Below are positions 11,044 to 34,396 of a DNA stretch of 36,159 nucleotides, in pieces. The stretch's first letter is position 1, and each line of letters opens with the position of its first letter. A program made the translations under genes and the position numbers. The notes under the pieces were generated by a model. The model was not told where the DNA came from. It did no database searches and saw only the letters and a program-made list of their open reading frames with translations. This DNA is from Methanobacteriota archaeon (GTDB taxonomy: Archaea > Thermoplasmatota > Poseidoniia > Poseidoniales > Poseidoniaceae), in NCBI GenBank assembly GCA_018666575.1, contig JABIYX010000147.1, positions 1 through 36,159 of the forward strand. The letters are read 5' to 3'.

Positions 11044-11122
11044 TCATGATAGGTGTGGCGATAGACGATTCTTGCTATGGTTACGTCGATGTGCTCAAAT
11101 GTGTTCCTCTTCTGGCAGGAGC

Positions 11123-13249
11123 ATGAGCGACATGAACGGAGACTTCCGCCGCCAACTTCCATCTATGATTGGAATGGCCTCGATGTTCTTGGTTACCATC
11201 TTCCTTGCAATGTTTATCCGCCCTTGGTACGACAGGGCTGGATTGCAAGCGTTCGGTGCAGAGGGGGCGTCTCAGTTACGCTATATCGGACTTGAATTGT
11301 TGATGATTTTTATCTTTACAGCAGCAATTCTCGCGCTCGCTCGCTACAAGAAGGAATGGGTCATCAAATACGGGATTATGGGTATTCTCTTCATTGCTCT
11401 CATGTACGCAAGCGTACCATTGGCTCATCAAATCATGGTCGACGACACCGTCACAGCGTTCGAATATGAATCAACAGATGTTACTGAGGCCGAATATTTG
11501 ACTGAAATTGGCATGAATCAATACATTGATTCAATTCGAACCAACGAAAGTGGGATTATCAACAACACGATTCGGTTGAATCAACTCGGGATGGATGAAC
11601 CTGTTTGGACATCTGTGATTCCTCACGGAACTGAAAGTTATGAATTCACTAAACTCGTTGTTGCAACCGGTCCAGATACGATTACAATAAACAATGGAGC
11701 ATTGATTCATACTCTATCACTCACTGATGGAACGCTTCTCTCAACATACGAATGTTTTGAGTACGATTTAGAGGGCAATATCCTTCCTATCGTCCAATTT
11801 GGTTGCATACTTGCAGTCGAAACAAGCGATTCAGTTTACATTGTTGATGGTGGAGAGAAACTCCACCGTTTTGCCACATTTGATGAAACACCTAATGTCA
11901 TGACATTACAGGCTATTTGGCAACTTCCAAGCGAGATGAAAGTCGTTGATGATCTCATTGAAGCCGAACTCCTCGACGACACTCATCTTCTCATTGTTAG
12001 CAAGGAAATGGCTGGAGTTGTTGAACTAGAAAAGACCGTTAGTCAAATTGGAGACGTTGGTTCAGGCTTCCAACAAACTGCAAAGGTTCTCATCAACGCT
12101 ACCTCAAGTGCAAACTTCTCAGCAGCTGATGTCGGTTACTCAAATGTCGCCGATGTACCGATGAGTGAAGCGGATAATGGCAACCAACTGATTGTCCTCG
12201 GAACTGAAGACGGAGACATCATGTCTTGGAATTATCAACCGGGTGAAGAGGAACTTGTTGTCGAAGAAAGCAAAGTTTCAATCAACAATTTCGCCGATCA
12301 AATCCGAGACGTCAGATTGACAGATATTGACAATTCAGGTTATACTGAATTGTTGATCACAACAGAAGATGAAGCACGACTCTTGTACGGATCGAGTATG
12401 GTTCAGAGATTGATTGTCGATGTAGCGGAAGGAGAAAACGTTGCAGTCGCCTTTGGCGATACCTCAGAAGATGTAGAAGATGATACAACACATCTTCATG
12501 CCACTGTCATCGGTGAGAATTATTCCACAACCTCAGGGGTTGTTGAGTCCTCGATGTTCCTAAGTGGAGGAATTGTCTTTGAGGACGTTCCAACATTGAT
12601 TGGATTGCTTGTCAGCATTATATTGATGATTCTACTTTATGTTCACAGCGAATGGTACGTGGTCAACACAGTTGGAATCCTTGTCGGTTCAGGTGTCATT
12701 GTTATGCTTGGTGTTTCCTTTGTTCCAACATTGATTATGGTGTTCATGGTTGCCGCAGCGATATACGATGCATGGGCTGTGTACAAATCGAAGCATATGC
12801 TCGACCTTGCTGATACGATGATTAATCTCAATCTTCCAATTCTCCTGGTTGCGCCACAAGGCTCAGATTATTCCTTTAGAGCTGAACGTGCTCCCCCCTC
12901 AACCGTCATATCTGCGCCTTCAACAGATGATCCAGTATCTCCGCAACCTCGTGAGCGAGTTATCAAAAAGAACAACGATGCAATGCTGATGGGCCTGGGT
13001 GATGTGATCTTCCCAGGTATGCTGGTTCTTTCTGTCCTCCAATACATCGGTGGAGATGATGGGTGGATTATGGCCATCACCACACTGATTGGCAGTCTTA
13101 TTGGTTATTCCATCCTCATGTGGTATGTTGGCCAAGGTAAGGCACAAGCAGGCCTTCCTCTTCTCAATGGTGGAGCCATTCTGGGCTACATTGTCGGTGG
13201 GATAATGACCATTGGAATGGCAATGTTCCAATTCAATATCAGTTTGTAG
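11123..13249 (+). CDS. Multi-pass membrane protein with an extracytoplasmic PQQ/FG-GAP-like beta-propeller region
   Basis: ORF 11072..13249; internal ATG MSDMNGDFRRQLPSM at 11123 preferred. N-terminal TM cluster, central repeat-like region with VRLTDIDNSGYTELLITTEDEARLL (FG-GAP/Ca-loop-like), C-terminal TM helices. Confidence 0.75.
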   Translation: MSDMNGDFRRQLPSMIGMASMFLVTIFLAMFIRPWYDRAGLQAFGAEGASQLRYIGLELLMIFIFTAAILALARYKKEWVIKYGIMGILFIALMYASVPLAHQIMVDDTVTAFEYESTDVTEAEYLTEIGMNQYIDSIRTNESGIINNTIRLNQLGMDEPVWTSVIPHGTESYEFTKLVVATGPDTITINNGALIHTLSLTDGTLLSTYECFEYDLEGNILPIVQFGCILAVETSDSVYIVDGGEKLHRFATFDETPNVMTLQAIWQLPSEMKVVDDLIEAELLDDTHLLIVSKEMAGVVELEKTVSQIGDVGSGFQQTAKVLINATSSANFSAADVGYSNVADVPMSEADNGNQLIVLGTEDGDIMSWNYQPGEEELVVEESKVSINNFADQIRDVRLTDIDNSGYTELLITTEDEARLLYGSSMVQRLIVDVAEGENVAVAFGDTSEDVEDDTTHLHATVIGENYSTTSGVVESSMFLSGGIVFEDVPTLIGLLVSIILMILLYVHSEWYVVNTVGILVGSGVIVMLGVSFVPTLIMVFMVAAAIYDAWAVYKSKHMLDLADTMINLNLPILLVAPQGSDYSFRAERAPPSTVISAPSTDDPVSPQPRERVIKKNNDAMLMGLGDVIFPGMLVLSVLQYIGGDDGWIMAITTLIGSLIGYSILMWYVGQGKAQAGLPLLNGGAILGYIVGGIMTIGMAMFQFNISL

Positions 13250-25301: not shown

Positions 25302-26930
25302 GTGAGTGAAATGGCGGCGGAACGGACAAGAAATCTGAAGCGAATTGGTCTTCAGGTTGCTTTTTGGGCAGTTCTTGGTATCCTTTTGCTTACAATTCTT
25401 CAGAACTTTATCAATATCAGTCAGTCGAATCAACTGTCTGCGTATGACGACGATTGGGATGATATGTCTGCTTTCCGAGAGGACATTAACGATATGGGCA
25501 TTGAAACACGATCTCTCGTAAGCAGTCCTCTGTTGTTAGCTGACATTGAAGATCCTCGAAACACAACGTTCGTCGTTGCAGGAGTTGAACGCGATACGCT
25601 CTCCTTCCCACAATTCGATGAAGATGGATTCATTACGATTGCAACAGAAGATGGTTATTCACCTTCAGAAGTCGATGCAATTGTAGAATTCGTTGACAAT
25701 GGCGGAACTGTAATCGTTTTGGAAGACTTTGGATACGCTGGAAGTATTGGTGAAGCCTACGGAGTACGCTATTCTGGCTATCAGTTGTACGACAGTAATT
25801 ACGTTGCAGAACTTGACTACAATTACATCTGGATGTGTATGCAAGAAAGCCCTTGTGGAATGAACGGAACAACACTTGATGAGACCACAATTGACGAACA
25901 TGAGCGTTGGTCTGATGTCACAGGTCCACATCCGTGCACTGAACTTGATGGTCAGTCCATGACTCTGGCTGATGCCGGGGTTTGCTCACATCACTGGGTC
26001 AAGAGTTCAGGAGAACTCGGCCGAATCGAATACAATGCCACTTACACCATGCTCCTCAACAACGTGACTGGACTTGAAATCGTACCCGGTGTAAAGGGTG
26101 CTCTCAATGACGTAAACGTTCGAGCCGTTACCAGCAATCAAGCAACTGTCGATGTCAATGGTGATGGAGACCTGTGGATTGGTAACGAACAAACGAGTGA
26201 AACACCTGACCTTTCGGGCCAATTTAATCTCTCAATCGAAGCATGTGCTTCGTCGAGTTGTGATCCAGATGAAGGCGGTAGAGTGTTCTTCATTGCAGAT
26301 GGCAGTGCACTGATTAACGCGATTTATGACTACGAAGGGTTCAACAATGGAGAGTACGGTAAAACACCGCAAAAAACCGTCCCTGCTAACGATAATAGAA
26401 AGTGGGCGCTCGATGTCATTTCTGAATCCTTAATGAGTACAAAAGACGGTGAAACAGGAGAACCTGCTGAGAATGCAATGGTCATCTTTGACGAAAGCCG
26501 CCACCCACAGAACGCTCTCTTGGCTGATTCCTACAATACTGTTTACTTCCTACTCGTCTACTTTACAGGAGAAGGGCTTGCAATGCTTGCTCTGTTCGTT
26601 GTTCTCTTCATCACATTTGAGGGTGTACTTCTCAAAAAGCGAGACCCAGAACCATGGCGCCACATCTTTAGCATCATTTACTACGGATTTGGAGATGCAA
26701 ACAGATACACGTACTATGCGAAAACGGAGAAAATACGGCAGGTATTCCTTTCCAAGGTTCGAAATCAGAATGGATTGACAAGAGATGAATTCCATGCCAT
26801 GCCCGCTAAGGAATTGGTTGGTCTAATCGAAGACCCAGTCCTTGCTAAATTTGCAATTGAACCTGGAAAGTATTCATTGGAACAATCCGTTGCACTTGTG
26901 AAGCGAATCAAAGCTTGGGGGCGTAGGTGA
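25302..26930 (+). CDS. DUF4350-like membrane-anchored protein
   Basis: 542 aa (GTG 25302 or ATG 25311); N-terminal TM, GFITIATEDGYSPSEVDAIVEFVDNGGTVIVLEDFGYAGSIGEAYGVRYSG, C-terminal TM and cytoplasmic tail. Gene order before DUF58 fits. Confidence 0.75.
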   Translation: MSEMAAERTRNLKRIGLQVAFWAVLGILLLTILQNFINISQSNQLSAYDDDWDDMSAFREDINDMGIETRSLVSSPLLLADIEDPRNTTFVVAGVERDTLSFPQFDEDGFITIATEDGYSPSEVDAIVEFVDNGGTVIVLEDFGYAGSIGEAYGVRYSGYQLYDSNYVAELDYNYIWMCMQESPCGMNGTTLDETTIDEHERWSDVTGPHPCTELDGQSMTLADAGVCSHHWVKSSGELGRIEYNATYTMLLNNVTGLEIVPGVKGALNDVNVRAVTSNQATVDVNGDGDLWIGNEQTSETPDLSGQFNLSIEACASSSCDPDEGGRVFFIADGSALINAIYDYEGFNNGEYGKTPQKTVPANDNRKWALDVISESLMSTKDGETGEPAENAMVIFDESRHPQNALLADSYNTVYFLLVYFTGEGLAMLALFVVLFITFEGVLLKKRDPEPWRHIFSIIYYGFGDANRYTYYAKTEKIRQVFLSKVRNQNGLTRDEFHAMPAKELVGLIEDPVLAKFAIEPGKYSLEQSVALVKRIKAWGRR

Positions 26931-28189
26931 GTACTATGTGGACGCGTAAGGCAGCGTTCACCTTTACCGGTGGTATCGCACTTATTCTGATCGGTATGAT
27001 GATTACCAACAATCAGATGATGATTCTTGGTTTGGCTTTAATCACATTCATTGTGGTTAACTCCTGGGTATCTGGCCACGGTGATATCGAAGTACAGCGC
27101 ACACTTTCCGCTGATAACTTGTACAAAGGCGATGACCTGTATGTTGAACTTCTTGTCACCAACCGAAGCAACCGACGTACCCAACTCCTCGATGTGTACG
27201 ACAACATTCCGCATGAAATGAAACTTCGAAGTGGTCTTAATCAGATGCGCCTCAACCTAAAACCTGGCGAAAGTGCCCGCATACGCTACGTATTGCGCTG
27301 TCCACTTCGTGGACATTACTCAATTGGACCTGTTTCCCTTCGTGTTCGAAACACATTCAACCTCGGCGTAGAAGATATGTATGTCGATCACCATTCAGAC
27401 ATTGTCATCTTTCCTCAAATCAAAGAAGTTGAGGAAGCCTTCTTGCGTTCTCGTACACCCAAGATGTACACTGGAGCAACAACTCTGAGAACCCCTGGGC
27501 AAGGTTCAGAATTCTATTCTTTGAGAGAATACGTTCCTGGTGACCCATTCAAGAACATCAACTGGAAAGCATTTGCACGAACAGGCGATTTGATGGTTAA
27601 TGAAAAGTGCCGTGATGCTGTTACTGATCTGTACATTCTTCTCGATTCGAGAGATGTTTCACGAATTGGAACTGTGCTGAAGAATCCACTTGAAATGGGA
27701 ACAGTGAGTGCAGCTAGCCTTGCAGCATTTTTCCTAAAGCGACGTGACAGCGTTGCATTAAGCATCTACGGAGATGGCTTGTCCTATCTTCCTCCAGACA
27801 CAGGAGACAAGCAGTATTTCAAAATCCTCAGTTCTCTTGCTGGAGTGAAACCTGAAGGGAGTATGCCATTGCAAGCTGTCACGAATTCATTAAGTGGAAG
27901 ATTCAGTCGAGGCAGCCCCGTTTTCATTATCTCATCATGTGAAGGTGACGGTACAGTCCCTGCTGCTGTACGAGACCTTGTTGGAAGAGGACACGAAGTC
28001 ACAGTATTGTCTCCATCGAGTATTGATTTCGAGCGTCTCGTTTCTCGTATTCCACGTATGTCCTATGAAGTTCTCAAACTTGAGCGTCAAAATCGTTTGA
28101 CAACCCTTGCGGGTTCAGGTGCACAAGTTATCGATTGGATGCCAGACATGGATTTGTCTCAGGCTATTATGCAAGTGAGGGGATTCTAG
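26927..28189 (+). CDS. DUF58 domain protein
   Basis: 420 aa; two N-terminal TMs and GSEFYSLREYVPGDPFKNINWKAFARTGDLMVNEK, the DUF58 hallmark. GTG 26927 overlaps the preceding stop; ATG 26936 is also possible. Confidence 0.93.
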   Translation: MSTMWTRKAAFTFTGGIALILIGMMITNNQMMILGLALITFIVVNSWVSGHGDIEVQRTLSADNLYKGDDLYVELLVTNRSNRRTQLLDVYDNIPHEMKLRSGLNQMRLNLKPGESARIRYVLRCPLRGHYSIGPVSLRVRNTFNLGVEDMYVDHHSDIVIFPQIKEVEEAFLRSRTPKMYTGATTLRTPGQGSEFYSLREYVPGDPFKNINWKAFARTGDLMVNEKCRDAVTDLYILLDSRDVSRIGTVLKNPLEMGTVSAASLAAFFLKRRDSVALSIYGDGLSYLPPDTGDKQYFKILSSLAGVKPEGSMPLQAVTNSLSGRFSRGSPVFIISSCEGDGTVPAAVRDLVGRGHEVTVLSPSSIDFERLVSRIPRMSYEVLKLERQNRLTTLAGSGAQVIDWMPDMDLSQAIMQVRGF

Positions 28190-29392
28190 ATGGCAGGTGA
28201 AGTTGATCCTCAGAGCGACGTCTCCCTTCTTGGTGGTCGTCCACGTACACTCCATCTCAAGATGCTGAGGAAGCAATGGCAAATTATCACATTACAAGTC
28301 GTAGCAACAATTGCTCTCGTCTGGATGTATCTCGAGGTTGTTTCAACCTACGTCGTCAACAGTATTGACCACACCATGGTCTTCGAGACGCTTGAATCGC
28401 TTGTCGGCGAAGTCCCAATTGGAGACTGGATTACTGGTGAAGGAAGGCAAGGTCTTGCACGATTCTATGTTCCAATAATCCTGGGACTTCTTCTCGGTGG
28501 TTCTATGGCACTAATGGCATTCCAATCGCCAAAACTACAACAAAGGATCAAACTTGGATTCATCATACTTCTCATGGTCTCTTTGGTTGGTCGACTTCTC
28601 TTGACCTGGGTTCCGTCGATGATTTTCTCACTCGACTTCAGGGCTCCTTCAGAAGGTGAATTGAAGACATTAGAATGGCCCTTGCTGATGATTTTGTCAC
28701 TCGTTATCCTTTTCGTATATCTCTTACCAGTCATTATGGGTACACGTGGAATTTGGGGCTTGTCAAGACGTTCAATTGGTTGGGCGATTGGATTTACACT
28801 CCTCTTCCTCGGTATACACGCAATCCTTACGTTCCCACTCATCAAGACACAGTTAGGTGATTGGGGGGCTAATCTGAAGACACTTGAAACACAAGTAAGC
28901 GATCCCACAATCGGCATATTTGGATTTGATTTAGTGACGCCTGAACAACTCTCACTGATTCTTATCGCTGTATTGATTATGGTATTCCAAGAGTCTGGTT
29001 TCGGCGTTATTCGATATCTCGAATATGCATACAGACTTCCTGAATCATGCAAGAGAGACCCTGAATATGTTAAGCAAATGGACAATGTTCTCAACGGACA
29101 CCTACGACACACAGCAGGATTCCTCTCCATCACTGGTTTAGTTACGATGATTGCTCTTGGATTCCACAGTGTCCTTCTCGAGATTGTGAGTTCTTCAACA
29201 GGAAGCCAATGGGCTGCTCAAGTTTCAGAATCCATCGAATTGACGCTAACTTATGGCTTAGTCATATCCGCGCTTCTTTTCTTGAGTATAATCGCACTAT
29301 TGCGCTTTTTCATCCCATGGCAGAGAGTTTGGGGTTTAATTGAAACCCTAGGGAACAAGACCCAGGCCCCAGTCGAAGAAAAGAAAATATGA
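28190..29392 (+). CDS. Polytopic (about 7 TM) membrane protein in the DUF4350-DUF58 operon
   Basis: 400 aa with repeated hydrophobic helices; starts immediately after the DUF58 stop. Confidence 0.8.
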   Translation: MAGEVDPQSDVSLLGGRPRTLHLKMLRKQWQIITLQVVATIALVWMYLEVVSTYVVNSIDHTMVFETLESLVGEVPIGDWITGEGRQGLARFYVPIILGLLLGGSMALMAFQSPKLQQRIKLGFIILLMVSLVGRLLLTWVPSMIFSLDFRAPSEGELKTLEWPLLMILSLVILFVYLLPVIMGTRGIWGLSRRSIGWAIGFTLLFLGIHAILTFPLIKTQLGDWGANLKTLETQVSDPTIGIFGFDLVTPEQLSLILIAVLIMVFQESGFGVIRYLEYAYRLPESCKRDPEYVKQMDNVLNGHLRHTAGFLSITGLVTMIALGFHSVLLEIVSSSTGSQWAAQVSESIELTLTYGLVISALLFLSIIALLRFFIPWQRVWGLIETLGNKTQAPVEEKKI

Positions 29393-29629
29393 TCATGCAT
29401 TTGCTCGAAGCATTTGGATTATTCTTCCACTCACTTCAGTCATAATCAGTAAGAATATGGCTAAAACAACGGATGCAGTCCATTGAAGCCAGGTTGAATC
29501 AATCTGATTCCACATGTATTGATTCAAGAAAACGAATCCTATGATTGCAAGAATGAAGATGCTTCTATCTAGCCAAATAGGATATGTTGAGCCAACTTTT
29601 TCGTTTCTTCCAAGAAATGTTTCAGTCAT
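29393..29629 (-). CDS. Small 2-TM protein, third gene of the Roadblock/coiled-coil operon
   Basis: 78 aa MTETFLGRNEKVGSTYPIWLDRSIFILAIIGFVFLNQYMWNQIDSTWLQWTASVVLAIFLLIMTEVSGRIIQ; RBS GAGGTGAT overlaps the stop of the upstream gene. Confidence 0.75.
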   Translation of the reverse strand: MTETFLGRNEKVGSTYPIWLDRSIFILAIIGFVFLNQYMWNQIDSTWLQWTASVVLAIFLLIMTEVSGRIIQMLRANA

Positions 29630-29638
29630 ATCATCACC

Positions 29639-32600
29639 TCAAAAATCTAACTCTGAGAGTTGATGTTCCAATGCAGCAAGATGTGGATCAACCTTTACTT
29701 CTGGTGTCCTCACTCCACGAATATTCCGTTCAGCATCGAGGCGTGCTAACTCAGCTTCAAGGTCTACTCGGTCCTCTTCAATCGGACGTCGAGTTTCAGA
29801 AACTTGTCTTTCCTCAACGGCAGGCCTTTCTACATCAACTGGCGCAGGCATCTCTTCCCATCCATTTTCAGTGACAATTTCTGGTGCAGGCTCAGCATCG
29901 AGTGACACACTTTCATCAACAATGAGTGTTGGCTGAATGTGTTGAATCATCTCATCCATGACAGGAGTTCTCTGACCTACAGGTATTGCTGTTCGTTCAA
30001 ACGGAAGATATCCATCTCGTTGGAAATCCCACATAGAGCCTCTTGGTACTCCCTTTGTTAATCCTGATGCGTCAATTTGTGTGAGGAGTTCTTCCAAAAC
30101 ACCTGCAGTCTGTTCAAGGGCAATTGCTTCGCCAGCATCCCTTTGGTCGGCCTCTAAGTAAATGTCATCTAGGGCAATACGAATCAATCGTCGTGTTTCG
30201 ACGGCAACGCTTGGCAGTGCTTCAGGACGCATACAGTTCATGCGTAGAGCATCAATCTCTTCTGGAGGTGCTCCGAGTTGACCTAATTGGTCGAGAACAT
30301 TTCGCATCCGTCTCAACATAGTAATCGAACGATCATAATCCTCGAGAATACCTTCCAAATCTAAGATGAGATGGCCTACAGTTTCACCAAGTTGATTTTC
30401 CAAACGTTGTTGAACTGACCATCGAGCAAGCCCACGCACTGCTCCTGCTGTCTGAGGAACTTGCCGTTCAAGTAGGGTCATCACTTCACTGCTGAGCAGA
30501 TTTCGTGGAGTTGCAGCAATATGATCAACTGTAGATTGAACAATTTGTAACGCTCGTTCTACTGCACGATCGAGAAGTATGACTGAGTATCCAAGAGTTC
30601 GTGCTTGTTCTAAACGTTCGATGACTGGACCGAGTCCTCTGAACGTTGAATCATCGTTGAGCAATGCTTGAGCGAGCGGTTCTTCTGAGAGTCGTGCTCT
30701 CAATCGTTCTGCTTCAGCAATGTCTGAAACAGCTTCTTCATGAGCATCTGTTAGTGCTTCTGCTCGGCTAATGAGGCCAGACAATTCAGTCTCTGCATTA
30801 CCTCGTCGAGCACCGAGGTTACCTAATTCGGTCAAGATGTCCCGTCGTTCAGTCATTAATTCACGCATTTCAGAATGGAGTTGCATACGTCGTGCTTCAT
30901 CCTCAGCAAGGCGGTGACGCTCTTCTTCTGCTCTTCGTCGACTTGCAATTGTCTCTGCTTCGATTTGGTCAAGTTTGGCCTGTGCAGCACGAACCTTTTC
31001 TTCAGAAACATTCGATTTGCTTTGGGCACTCGATTGACGTTCTCGCATCGAAGATATTTGTTCTTCAAGGGCTCGTAGTCTTCGTTCCTCTGTATCGATT
31101 TGATCACGAACAGATGACAACTTCTGTGCATTTGATTCAAGTTCAGCACGAGTAGAGGCTTCACTTGAGGAGAGCTCTTCCAACTCATTTCGAAGTGCTT
31201 CACTGCTTGTTGCATTTCCAAGTGCCTTGGCGAGTTCACCAGCACGTTCACTCAGTTGATGCTCAAGCTCACTCACACGTCGTAGTAATCGGTCTGCACG
31301 TTCTTCCGCTTGTTCCATTCGAGTTCTTGATTCAGAGACAGTGACTTGAACTCGATTGAGTTCATCGTTTTTTGACTGAATGGTTAATGATTGATCCCCA
31401 GAAGATTCTTTGATCTCTCCCAAGCGAATGAGAGCCTCAGTTCTCTGTTTCTCAGAATCCTGTAATTGCGTTGTTAATCCAGCATTCGTCCGCAAAAGGG
31501 AGTCTGAACGAAGTTCTGCTTCCTCAAGTCGTCGTCTTAATCCGGCATCAACACCTGCTACAGGAGATGCAGCCGGTAAGCCCTTACTCGAATCCGCTCC
31601 ATCGATTCGAATTGAGACCTTACTTCGATGCTGGCGAACAAGGTCAAGTCCGATTTCAAATCCATACATTGTCATGAGTCGATGCATCATGGTTTCCTTT
31701 CGCTTTTCAGATCGAGTTCGGACGGATGATAAAGCCTCAACAAAACTCTCCAGTGAGAAGGATTCAACATCGCCTGTTGAAGATGAAACCGTTGTTCCTG
31801 AAGCAAGGCGATGGAGTTTCACAATACGCTTACTTTCCGTTAATCCCATCATGGCCTCATCAAAGGATTGTCCATTTGCCGCCATTGCTACTGGAATTCC
31901 CTTAACCAATGCAAGTGATACTGCTTTGTTACTTGCGCCTGCTTTGAGATGTCCAGTCACTTGTTCTTCCAAAGCGGCACTGAGCATAGACATGACTGCA
32001 TCTGAGCCACCTTTTCCTTCTCTGAGGATGAATCCATCAGGGAGGGTGGCTGCTCCTTCAGCATAGGTGCCGATTTCCCCATCGAGTTGAGCGGTAAGAT
32101 CAGTCAAAAGGCGAGCATGATTCGTGTCGAGCTCAGTCCATATTGCAATAACAATGGTACTACTCGAAGCAAGCAATACTGACGCATCACCCATCTTCAG
32201 CGTAGCATATCCTTGTTCAGTTCCACCTAATTGTGATTGATGTGATGCCATCGAATCAGCGAGTGATGAGATACTCGAGGCCAGTTCCTCAGATTTGCCT
32301 GGGAGTGTTCCTGCACTATCGATAAGAATTCCTTGATCTGCTGCAAGTGCTCCTTGGACGTGATCGTATCCTTCAAGTGTGGAAAGAACGGCAGAAATGT
32401 TTCGGGCGAAGAGCCGGTCTGTGAGTGATGATCCTGCAGAAAGACCTTGGGCATCTGCTTGAAATTCAAAGGCTTCAGGAATGAGTGTCGCCAACGACCC
32501 AAGGCCTCTGAGTGAACAAGCGTAACCCACGAGTCTGTGCGTACCTTCTTCAGCAGCTTCCAAAGCCTTTCGTGCATCGCCTCCTCCAAGGAGTTTCGTA

Positions 32601-32779
32601 GCACTGTCGCCTTCACAAAGCCAACCAACAATCCTGCCCGCTCGAACAAGTCGATGGCCATAGGGTGTTTTTCTTCTGCCGACCCATGTGGTAATATATC
32701 CGTTTTCAAACGGTTGAATTGTACCTGGAGATACGTTTAATTCTTCATCTATTTGCTCGCTGTGTGGTAAATCAAACAT
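29639..32779 (-). CDS. Large Roadblock/LC7-like plus long coiled-coil protein
   Basis: ORF 29639..32842; ATG MFDLPHSEQIDEELN at 32779 preferred (RBS AGGTGAT upstream; TGATG overlap with the upstream stop). Region DHVQGALAADQGILIDSAGTLPGKSEELASSISSLADSMASHQSQLGGTEQGYATLKMGDASVLLASSSTIVIAIWTELDTNHARLLTDLTAQLD fits the Robl/MglB pattern, followed by about 350 aa of Glu/Arg/Ser heptad-like coiled coil and a helical C-terminal region. Confidence 0.85.
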   Translation of the reverse strand: MFDLPHSEQIDEELNVSPGTIQPFENGYITTWVGRRKTPYGHRLVRAGRIVGWLCEGDSATKLLGGGDARKALEAAEEGTHRLVGYACSLRGLGSLATLIPEAFEFQADAQGLSAGSSLTDRLFARNISAVLSTLEGYDHVQGALAADQGILIDSAGTLPGKSEELASSISSLADSMASHQSQLGGTEQGYATLKMGDASVLLASSSTIVIAIWTELDTNHARLLTDLTAQLDGEIGTYAEGAATLPDGFILREGKGGSDAVMSMLSAALEEQVTGHLKAGASNKAVSLALVKGIPVAMAANGQSFDEAMMGLTESKRIVKLHRLASGTTVSSSTGDVESFSLESFVEALSSVRTRSEKRKETMMHRLMTMYGFEIGLDLVRQHRSKVSIRIDGADSSKGLPAASPVAGVDAGLRRRLEEAELRSDSLLRTNAGLTTQLQDSEKQRTEALIRLGEIKESSGDQSLTIQSKNDELNRVQVTVSESRTRMEQAEERADRLLRRVSELEHQLSERAGELAKALGNATSSEALRNELEELSSSEASTRAELESNAQKLSSVRDQIDTEERRLRALEEQISSMRERQSSAQSKSNVSEEKVRAAQAKLDQIEAETIASRRRAEEERHRLAEDEARRMQLHSEMRELMTERRDILTELGNLGARRGNAETELSGLISRAEALTDAHEEAVSDIAEAERLRARLSEEPLAQALLNDDSTFRGLGPVIERLEQARTLGYSVILLDRAVERALQIVQSTVDHIAATPRNLLSSEVMTLLERQVPQTAGAVRGLARWSVQQRLENQLGETVGHLILDLEGILEDYDRSITMLRRMRNVLDQLGQLGAPPEEIDALRMNCMRPEALPSVAVETRRLIRIALDDIYLEADQRDAGEAIALEQTAGVLEELLTQIDASGLTKGVPRGSMWDFQRDGYLPFERTAIPVGQRTPVMDEMIQHIQPTLIVDESVSLDAEPAPEIVTENGWEEMPAPVDVERPAVEERQVSETRRPIEEDRVDLEAELARLDAERNIRGVRTPEVKVDPHLAALEHQLSELDF

Positions 32780-33120
32780 CAAATCACCTGTGTTTTTGTT
32801 GCATTTATGCGCTGTCGTTGACGTGTAAGTTGGTAACGCCACATACCTTTCGAACCGTTTTTGCCAGAAATAGCAGCAAATACCCCTGCATCAATCTGGT
32901 CAATGACGGTAAGTCGTCGTGATTCAATCCATACTTCGTGCAGTTCACCAATTCCTAAGGAAGAAGCGACTGAGGCGCATTTAGACCATTCAACACGCTG
33001 CTCTTTCAGAGATTCTGGCCAACGTTTTGTCGTGGAATGTTCATTTCCGAACTGATCGAAAAGCCGAACATGACGTGCGTCTTTGATTTCACAAAGACCA
33101 GAAAAAACACTGTTCAGCAT
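32779..33120 (-). CDS. Small Roadblock/LC7-like protein
   Basis: 113 aa MLNSVFSGLCEIKDARHVRLFDQFGNEHS...EWSKCASVASSLGIGELHEVWIESRRLTVIDQIDAGVFAAISGKNGSKGMWRYQLTRQRQR; predicted alpha-beta-beta-alpha-beta-beta-alpha order compatible with Robl/LC7; coupled by TGATG to the next gene. Confidence 0.65.
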   Translation of the reverse strand: MLNSVFSGLCEIKDARHVRLFDQFGNEHSTTKRWPESLKEQRVEWSKCASVASSLGIGELHEVWIESRRLTVIDQIDAGVFAAISGKNGSKGMWRYQLTRQRQRINATKTQVI

Positions 33121-33292: not shown

Positions 33293-33343
33293 CAATTAAT
33301 ATTAAAAATTGCAATTGAATTTTAAAATTTTCAATTGAATTTT
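33293..33343. repeat. Phased AT-rich direct repeats (CAATTGAATTTT x2 at 20-bp spacing, plus a degenerate copy)
   Basis: CAATTGAATTTT at 33312-33323 and 33332-33343; degenerate CAATTAATATTA at 33293-33304. Located upstream of the Ncs6-like gene. Confidence 0.75.
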
Positions 33344-33376
33344 TTATTCCATCACCACATCCATCGGAGGCGTTTA

Positions 33377-34396
33377 ATGGTGGAATTGAGACGAATTACC
33401 ATGGCGGAACCCACGCAGGCACTTTTCCAGGCTCCAGCCTGTGATGTCTGTGGAAAGGATGCTGTTGTGGAGCAGGCCTACTCTGGGCGTGTATTGTGCG
33501 GGTCTCATCTTGAACAATCTATTCGCAAAAAGGTTGGAAGAGAATTGCGTAAGCAACTTGTTCTCGACAAATCAAAAGATACGACCATATTCGTTGCCAT
33601 ATCAGGCGGTAAGGACTCTGCTGTGTTGCTTACAATGCTTGTTGATCTTGTCGGCAAGCGACGTGACGTTCGAATTGTAGCAGGCTGTGTTGATGAAGGA
33701 ATCGAAGGATATCGCCCCCCATCGATGCAATGTGCAATCGATCTTTGTAGGGATCTAGGTGTTGAATTCATCACCACTTCATACGAATCTCTTGAATTCC
33801 ATCAAATGGATGAAGTCGTTCGCCGCTTGCCAATGGTTTCTGAGAAAAGTGCAGGGGCTTCGACAATGCCTTGTTCATACTGCGGTGTGTTTCGAAGACA
33901 AGGCATTAACGCACTTGCAGAACAAGTGAATGCTGATGTTATGGCTCTAGGGCATAATCTCGATGATATGGCTCAAACAGTCTTGATGAATATGGCCAAT
34001 GGAGACATTGACAGAACGCTCCGTCTTGCCCCTCACACAGATTCTCCAGTCGATGGATTGCCTCCAAGAATTGTTCCACTACGCTGGATTCCAGAGCAAG
34101 AAATCCATCTGCTTGCAATGCATAAACAACTTCCAATGCATCATGAGGAGTGCCCATACGCTCAGGGAGCCCTTCGATGGAGGTACAGAGATCTCGTTGC
34201 ACAAATGGAACAGGATGTTCCTGGAACAAGACATAGCCTTGTCCGAATGGCAGACAACATCAAGATGGTTGCAAAGCAAGAACCTGCTCAAGCTCGTGCC
34301 CAACCAATGAAGTGTGAACGCTGCGGTTCTCCTACATCAGGGGCAACATGCAAAGCATGCGATATGCGAGACTTACTCGACCTAGATTTAGAGTAA
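33377..34396 (+). CDS. Ncs6/TtuA/TtcA-family tRNA 2-thiolation ATP-pyrophosphatase
   Basis: ORF 33335..34396; ATG 33377 after GGAGG preferred. N-terminal CDVCG...C..H zinc motif, SGGKDS PP-loop, MPCSYCGVFRRQGINALA, GHNLDDMAQTVLMNMANGD, C-terminal CERCGSPTSGATCKAC. Confidence 0.93.
   Translation: MVELRRITMAEPTQALFQAPACDVCGKDAVVEQAYSGRVLCGSHLEQSIRKKVGRELRKQLVLDKSKDTTIFVAISGGKDSAVLLTMLVDLVGKRRDVRIVAGCVDEGIEGYRPPSMQCAIDLCRDLGVEFITTSYESLEFHQMDEVVRRLPMVSEKSAGASTMPCSYCGVFRRQGINALAEQVNADVMALGHNLDDMAQTVLMNMANGDIDRTLRLAPHTDSPVDGLPPRIVPLRWIPEQEIHLLAMHKQLPMHHEECPYAQGALRWRYRDLVAQMEQDVPGTRHSLVRMADNIKMVAKQEPAQARAQPMKCERCGSPTSGATCKACDMRDLLDLDLE

Follow-up and report, generated by a model that had tools for sequence, protein, structure and literature searches.

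Two adjacent Roadblock-superfamily genes, one encoding a long coiled-coil rod, in Poseidoniales archaea

Roadblock domains are usually taken to work with small GTPases, and their archaeal abundance is cited in the debate on how eukaryotic membrane traffic originated. Here we describe two adjacent minus-strand genes, A and B, and a small neighbour, C, on a 36,159-nucleotide stretch of DNA (the window; contig JABIYX010000147.1) from an assembly of 1.87 Mb in 202 contigs (89% complete) of the archaeal order Poseidoniales, or Marine Group II. By the features tested, A and B belong to the Roadblock superfamily, and they very probably constitute one unit, inherited or lost as a pair.

Several described systems share part of this design. 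In the polarity module of Myxococcus and Thermus (MglB/RomY/MglC), small Roadblock proteins act in dimeric form or together with another small protein, and MglB is among the best structural matches of both A and B. However, MglB acts on the GTPase MglA, whereas no MglA or Arf-like gene was detected in Poseidoniales, and MglB has neither the 271-residue rod nor the C-terminal domain found in B. Archaeal and Asgard Roadblock proteins (7f8m, 7yh1 and 9jue) have the same fold as A and are its best profile matches, and one of them has been proposed as a protein scaffold (PMC10933270); unlike A/B, they consist of one domain and come from genomes rich in small GTPases. In Ragulator, the Roadblock heterodimers LAMTOR2/3 and LAMTOR4/5 form a scaffold and are structural matches of A and B; A and B, two different Roadblock chains encoded in one operon, may pair in a comparable way. 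Ragulator differs in that it is held by LAMTOR1 and serves Rag GTPases, with no established counterpart of either for A/B. CvnB5 of the Streptomyces conservon (3leq) is the best PDB sequence match of the B Roadblock domain, but the conservon also includes a histidine kinase gene and the Ras-like CvnD, both absent from the A/B operon. A literature search, with subscription papers and preprints outside its scope, found no description of a Poseidoniales Roadblock system; an architecture with such a rod and C-terminal domain, confined to Poseidoniales, has no precedent in the literature searched.

Roadblock domains of A and B and the search for a GTPase

The original prediction, made from the DNA letters, had proposed A as a Roadblock-like protein and B as a giant Roadblock/coiled-coil protein. 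Although the window's own A had no Pfam match as a single sequence and its B scored 13.4 bits against PF03259, under the Pfam cut-off, profiles of homologues settled the assignment. A profile of 43 A homologues gave 12 matches in the PDB, all of them Roadblock proteins, with 7f8m_A as the best (3.7e-9) and 7yh1_D (1.1e-7), MglC (8.5e-6), CvnB5 and MglB among the others. PF03259 matched 20 of the 43 homologues (best 2.5e-7). The AlphaFold2 (AF2) model of A, with a predicted local distance difference test score (pLDDT) of 89.8, contained helix 2-10, strands 17-22 and 27-30, helix 38-55, strands 62-66, 70-77 and 80-86 and helix 91-112, which is the Roadblock order of helix, two strands, helix, three strands and helix. 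The top 50 Foldseek matches of this model were all of the Roadblock family (MglB, Asgard Roadblock, Ragulator and dynein-associated proteins), with TM-scores of about 0.7-0.8.

One clear Roadblock domain was found in B. A profile of 50 B N-termini gave three matches in the PDB (3leq, 7f8f and 7yh1), Roadblock only, over residues ~127-233, the best being 3leq_A (4.6e-4), and PF03259 matched 8 of the 50 homologues (best 2.1e-4). The AF2 model of residues 1-405 (pLDDT 81.2) showed the same Roadblock order of helices and strands as A, and the top 50 Foldseek matches of the head were Roadblock proteins from the same four groups. The agreement of PDB profile matches, PF03259 matches in homologues, AF2 and Foldseek thus bore out the Roadblock claim for both proteins. 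Two alpha/beta domains flank the Roadblock domain of B. The N-terminal one was modelled with strands 26-33, 41-46 and 49-56, helix 66-76 and strand 81-87 and had no Pfam or NCBIfam match; the second, in the order helix, three strands, helix, strand, had no Pfam match. A PATAN/DUF4388 identity of these domains was rejected, since the likeness was one of topology by eye only and no Pfam match was found in 50 homologues, and so was an internal duplication, for which hhalign found nothing.

The prediction had also noted that no GTPase gene is visible in the window, which was right and extends to the genome level. PF00071 (Ras-like) had no hit over cut-off in the window's own genome, and none of 24 genomes from the families Poseidoniaceae and Thalassarchaeaceae, including the closed genome G002, contained a PF00025 (Arf-like) match above cut-off, with control genomes positive. 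The Ras-like partner expected of an MglA-MglB module was thus not found in these scans, and as far as such a partner defines the module, A and B are not members of it. MglA was present in 200 of the 238 prokaryote genomes that encode MglB homologues (PMC4316618); the MglB homologues without MglA in the remaining genomes therefore provide a precedent for Roadblock genes without an MglA partner.

A/B might instead be a platform resembling a GTPase-activating protein or a guanine nucleotide exchange factor (GAP/GEF) for an NTPase outside the Ras and Arf families, such as a KaiC-like, AAA+ or tubulin-family protein, with the rod placing the head nearby. The Roadblock superfamily was predicted to regulate NTPases generally (Koonin and Aravind 2000, as quoted in PMC4316618), regulatory action of Roadblock proteins has been seen in MglB/RomY (PMC9481161), and a KaiC-like gene lies near a second Roadblock gene at two other Poseidoniales loci (L146 and L148). 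However, the A/B operon contains no conserved NTPase gene, its conserved flanks are NcsA/TtuA, PyrB/PyrI and multi-transmembrane/DUF58 genes, and the negative Arf-like scan also speaks against this role, which we consider rather unlikely.

Distribution of the A/B pair and of C

Among 195 genomes of the order, the B N-terminus was found in 119, nearly all of them Poseidoniaceae. Four Poseidoniaceae genomes had no B match; two of these carry B fragments, and the other two also lack the neighbouring multi-transmembrane gene, so that the assembly does not contain the locus. In Thalassarchaeaceae, B was confined to the genera g14, g16, g18 and g21. A adjoined B at every locus that the contig covers, and C adjoined B in nearly every locus. 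At 14 loci from six A/B-negative genera of one Thalassarchaeaceae clade, the space from NcsA/TtuA to the multi-transmembrane gene held neither A nor B and mostly held a recognisable C. Profiles of A and of the conserved half of B had no real match in 32 genomes of this clade, and PF03259 found no convincing Roadblock protein there. In an unrooted tree of the multi-transmembrane neighbour, a single branch with a support of 100/100 separated the A/B-negative loci from the rest, and hence one evolutionary change accounts for the pattern of presence and absence. Given the GTDB families, loss of A/B is likelier than gain, with the tree itself unrooted.

C had been proposed as the membrane partner, so that A, B and C would form a single complex that C anchors in the membrane, as LAMTOR1 does for Ragulator. 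C has two transmembrane segments (by eye), is small and, in most A/B-positive loci, lies directly after B with a spacing of 8-11 nt. However, it was found in 187 of the 195 genomes, among them almost all that are A/B-negative (some A/B-negative sequences had gone into the C profile), and it persists in place throughout the clade without A/B; moreover, its mean column identity is 30%, compared with 70% for the C-terminal domain of B. Retention at loci without A/B ruled out C as an obligate member of the unit, and the claim of a necessary partner fell with it. The candidate for a dedicated membrane anchor adjoins B, yet is also kept where A/B are absent, and the three-protein complex appears improbable. 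As C stays at this site even without A/B, it has a role independent of them; this role is probably in something older and found throughout the order, perhaps together with the adjacent multi-transmembrane protein.

A role in polarity, also put forward by the original prediction, was compared with the distribution of archaellins, scanned with PF01917 over the 195 genomes. A/B could position or regulate the archaellum or another type IV pilus (T4P), as MglA/MglB do for bacterial pili: arCOG02603 Roadblock proteins are often encoded within archaeal T4P loci (PMC4858521), and A/B and archaellins were both present in nearly all Poseidoniaceae. The scan was consistent with the flagella reported for all Poseidoniaceae and half of the Thalassarchaeaceae genera (Rinke et al., PMC6461757). 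In Thalassarchaeaceae, however, A/B and archaellin occur together in g14 and g18, A/B alone in g16 and g21, and archaellin alone in g13 and g20; moreover, archaellum genes are not near A/B. A tight archaellum link was rejected on this uncoupling, A/B presence does not track archaellin presence as a polarity or motility role would suggest, and we regard a pilus-related function as very unlikely.

The rod of B and a proposed scaffold role

The long coiled coil that had been predicted in B was borne out. Hydrophobic heptad periodicity peaked at 3.5, and residues 420-690 were exactly 271 residues long, without a single proline, in all 87 copies that have both anchors. In 34 non-redundant homologues, the rod had a mean identity of 42% (minimum 28%) and no gap events in residues 410-690, compared with 28 in residues 1-359, where the mean identity was 37%; there were 10 in the linker, 3 in residues 691-930 and 49 in the tail. 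Length variation of coiled coils is generally 3.6-fold lower than that of other regions (PMC5082667). Since about 6 gap events would still be expected in the rod after this scaling and none was observed (crude Poisson P ~0.002, shared ancestry ignored), the constancy of its length remains unusual. Golgins and other spacer-type coiled coils likewise diverge in sequence at constant length (PMC5082667), but they are eukaryotic and without homology to B, so the likeness is one of design only. As a single continuous coiled coil, the rod would be about 40 nm long.

The rod was also matched by the NCBIfam SMC and Rad50 models and the PADLOC JetC model (E about 1e-8 to 1e-5), as would be the case if B were an SMC/Rad50-like protein of the chromosome or of DNA repair with an incidental Roadblock head. 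These matches covered the coiled coil only (residues ~415-705) and were far under the family cut-offs, B had no ATPase-head match, and the Foldseek matches of its head were exclusively Roadblock; such an identity is very improbable. A defence-system reading was rejected because the PADLOC matches, through JetC/MukB-like models, were likewise to the coiled coil only.

Residues 691-930 had the lowest column entropy in B, and judged by this conservation the strongest constraint in the protein falls on the C-terminal domain. The domain had no Pfam or PDB family, and a search for B homologues outside the order, in 392 genomes of the phylum, gave coiled-coil matches only. A FliS-like match (E 0.006) was weak and was taken as a chance likeness between helical bundles. 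The tail that follows varied from 96 to 156 residues among homologues, with a mean identity of 29%.

From these features we propose, with middling confidence, that A/B is a cytoplasmic scaffold or tether with a Roadblock head, a rod of set length and a partner-binding end domain. The Roadblock domain of A would pair with that of B to form the head, either as a heterodimer or as A dimers docked on the B head. The rod of about 271 residues would be the spacer, its length being set, while the main, conserved partner may be bound by the helical C-terminal domain. The unit would then keep a cargo or a patch of membrane a defined distance away from that partner, serving as scaffold or tether rather than as GAP/GEF for a Ras-like switch. 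A more specific version is tentative: a GTPase-free tether with a Roadblock heterodimer on a ~40-nm rod of fixed length and the new, conserved domain on a cellular landmark, which would mean that Roadblock scaffolding in archaea arose or persists apart from Ras-like switches.

Several points weigh against the pairing and the tether. Roadblock domains often homodimerise, and the profiles of A and B were only weakly similar (hhalign probability 25%), so that A and B are not close paralogues. The joint absence of A and B counts as one event and therefore makes a strong A-B link only in combination with their adjacency. The rod may also run antiparallel or fold back on itself, at half the reach, and a divergent GTPase may have escaped the Pfam models. 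If the scaffold proposal holds, this conserved pair in a large group of surface-ocean archaea, with its rod of constant length, its strongly constrained new domain and no Ras-like partner detected, would be a clean case of Roadblock as a pure scaffold, and the natural absence of A/B in one clade offers a ready comparison.

Gene arrangement and neighbouring genes

Re-derived open reading frames placed A, B and C in a tight minus-strand operon (Table 1), at the positions originally claimed. The details held as well: the last base of the TGA of A is the first of the ATG of B in TGATG (32781-32777), and the 'GA' of the ribosome-binding site (RBS) of C, GAGGTGAT (29640-29633), is shared with the B stop. 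Among relatives, the distance from A stop to B start was -1 in 35 copies and +2 to +14 in 57 copies. A longer B frame could start at GTG 32842; the motif MF.LP at ATG 32779 is conserved among homologues. Synteny in relatives, which had been named as a check, was found: the order A-B-C and its flanks (PyrB-PyrI, NcsA/TtuA on the opposite strand, A-B-C, then multi-transmembrane protein-DUF58-DUF4350 on the opposite strand) are conserved across Poseidoniales. With this synteny and a Roadblock fold in both proteins, neither of the two grounds named for refutation applied. Since almost every Poseidoniaceae genome and some of the Thalassarchaeaceae have the same order, the arrangement is not due to chance.

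Table 1. Coordinates of the genes, domains and signals in the window.
Feature	Position	Strand	Description
Gene A	32779..33120	-	113 aa, stand-alone Roadblock/LC7-fold protein
Gene B	29639..32779	-	1046 aa, start ATG 32779
B domain order	29639..32779	-	alpha/beta, Roadblock, alpha/beta, linker, coiled-coil rod, conserved helical domain, variable tail
B N-terminal alpha/beta domain, residues 1-115	32435..32779	-	AF2; no known family
B Roadblock domain, residues 128-233	32081..32398	-	profile, PF03259, AF2, Foldseek
B second alpha/beta domain, residues 249-387	31619..32035	-	AF2; PATAN-like topology by eye only
B coiled-coil rod, residues 412-690	30710..31546	-	indel-free between homologues
B helical C-terminal domain, residues 691-930	29990..30709	-	most conserved part of B
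B variable acidic tail, residues 931-1046	29642..29989	-	probably disordered
Gene C	29393..29629	-	78 aa, two-transmembrane protein; neighbour of B, non-obligate for the A/B unit
TGATG stop/start overlap	32777..32781	-	couples A and B
GAGGTGAT, RBS of C	29633..29640	-	overlaps B stop
Convergent neighbour	28190..29392	+	400-aa multi-transmembrane protein; adjoins C in examined loci
Divergent neighbour (flank marker)	33335..34396	+	NcsA/TtuA-type tRNA thiolation enzyme; Pfam, NCBIfam, synteny

The multi-transmembrane neighbour was present in 192 of the 195 genomes and has no Pfam family. In the window it belongs to a DUF4350-DUF58-multi-transmembrane operon (25302-29392) convergent with A-B-C. 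In the one-contig genome G002 (L084, C1:1852802-1855974), B and this neighbour are each in two frames, reflecting sequencing error or decay. The entire Poseidoniales locus was also found on a contig labelled 'uncultured Rhodobiaceae bacterium' (L040), a record that is apparently mis-binned. Elsewhere in the window, a 725-aa protein (11072-13249) has a C-terminal presenilin/signal-peptide-peptidase domain (PF06550, 1.4e-44).

A separate, second Roadblock family (109-136 aa) was observed in other Poseidoniales (L147:4876-5271, L145:4954-5313, L146:4788-5138 and L149:4954-5283) and was not detected in the window's genome. Its genes cluster with coiled-coil genes (one DUF7121), a GNAT acetyltransferase gene and PurP. 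The KaiC-like ATPase gene near it was seen by eye in two genomes (L146:7352-8044 and L148:5376-6128). Beside another of these Roadblock genes, a 726-aa protein (L147:2213-4390) has a poly(A) polymerase core of the Cid1/mitochondrial type (PF22600, 4e-32; PAP_assoc, 6e-7), which is unusual for an archaeon.

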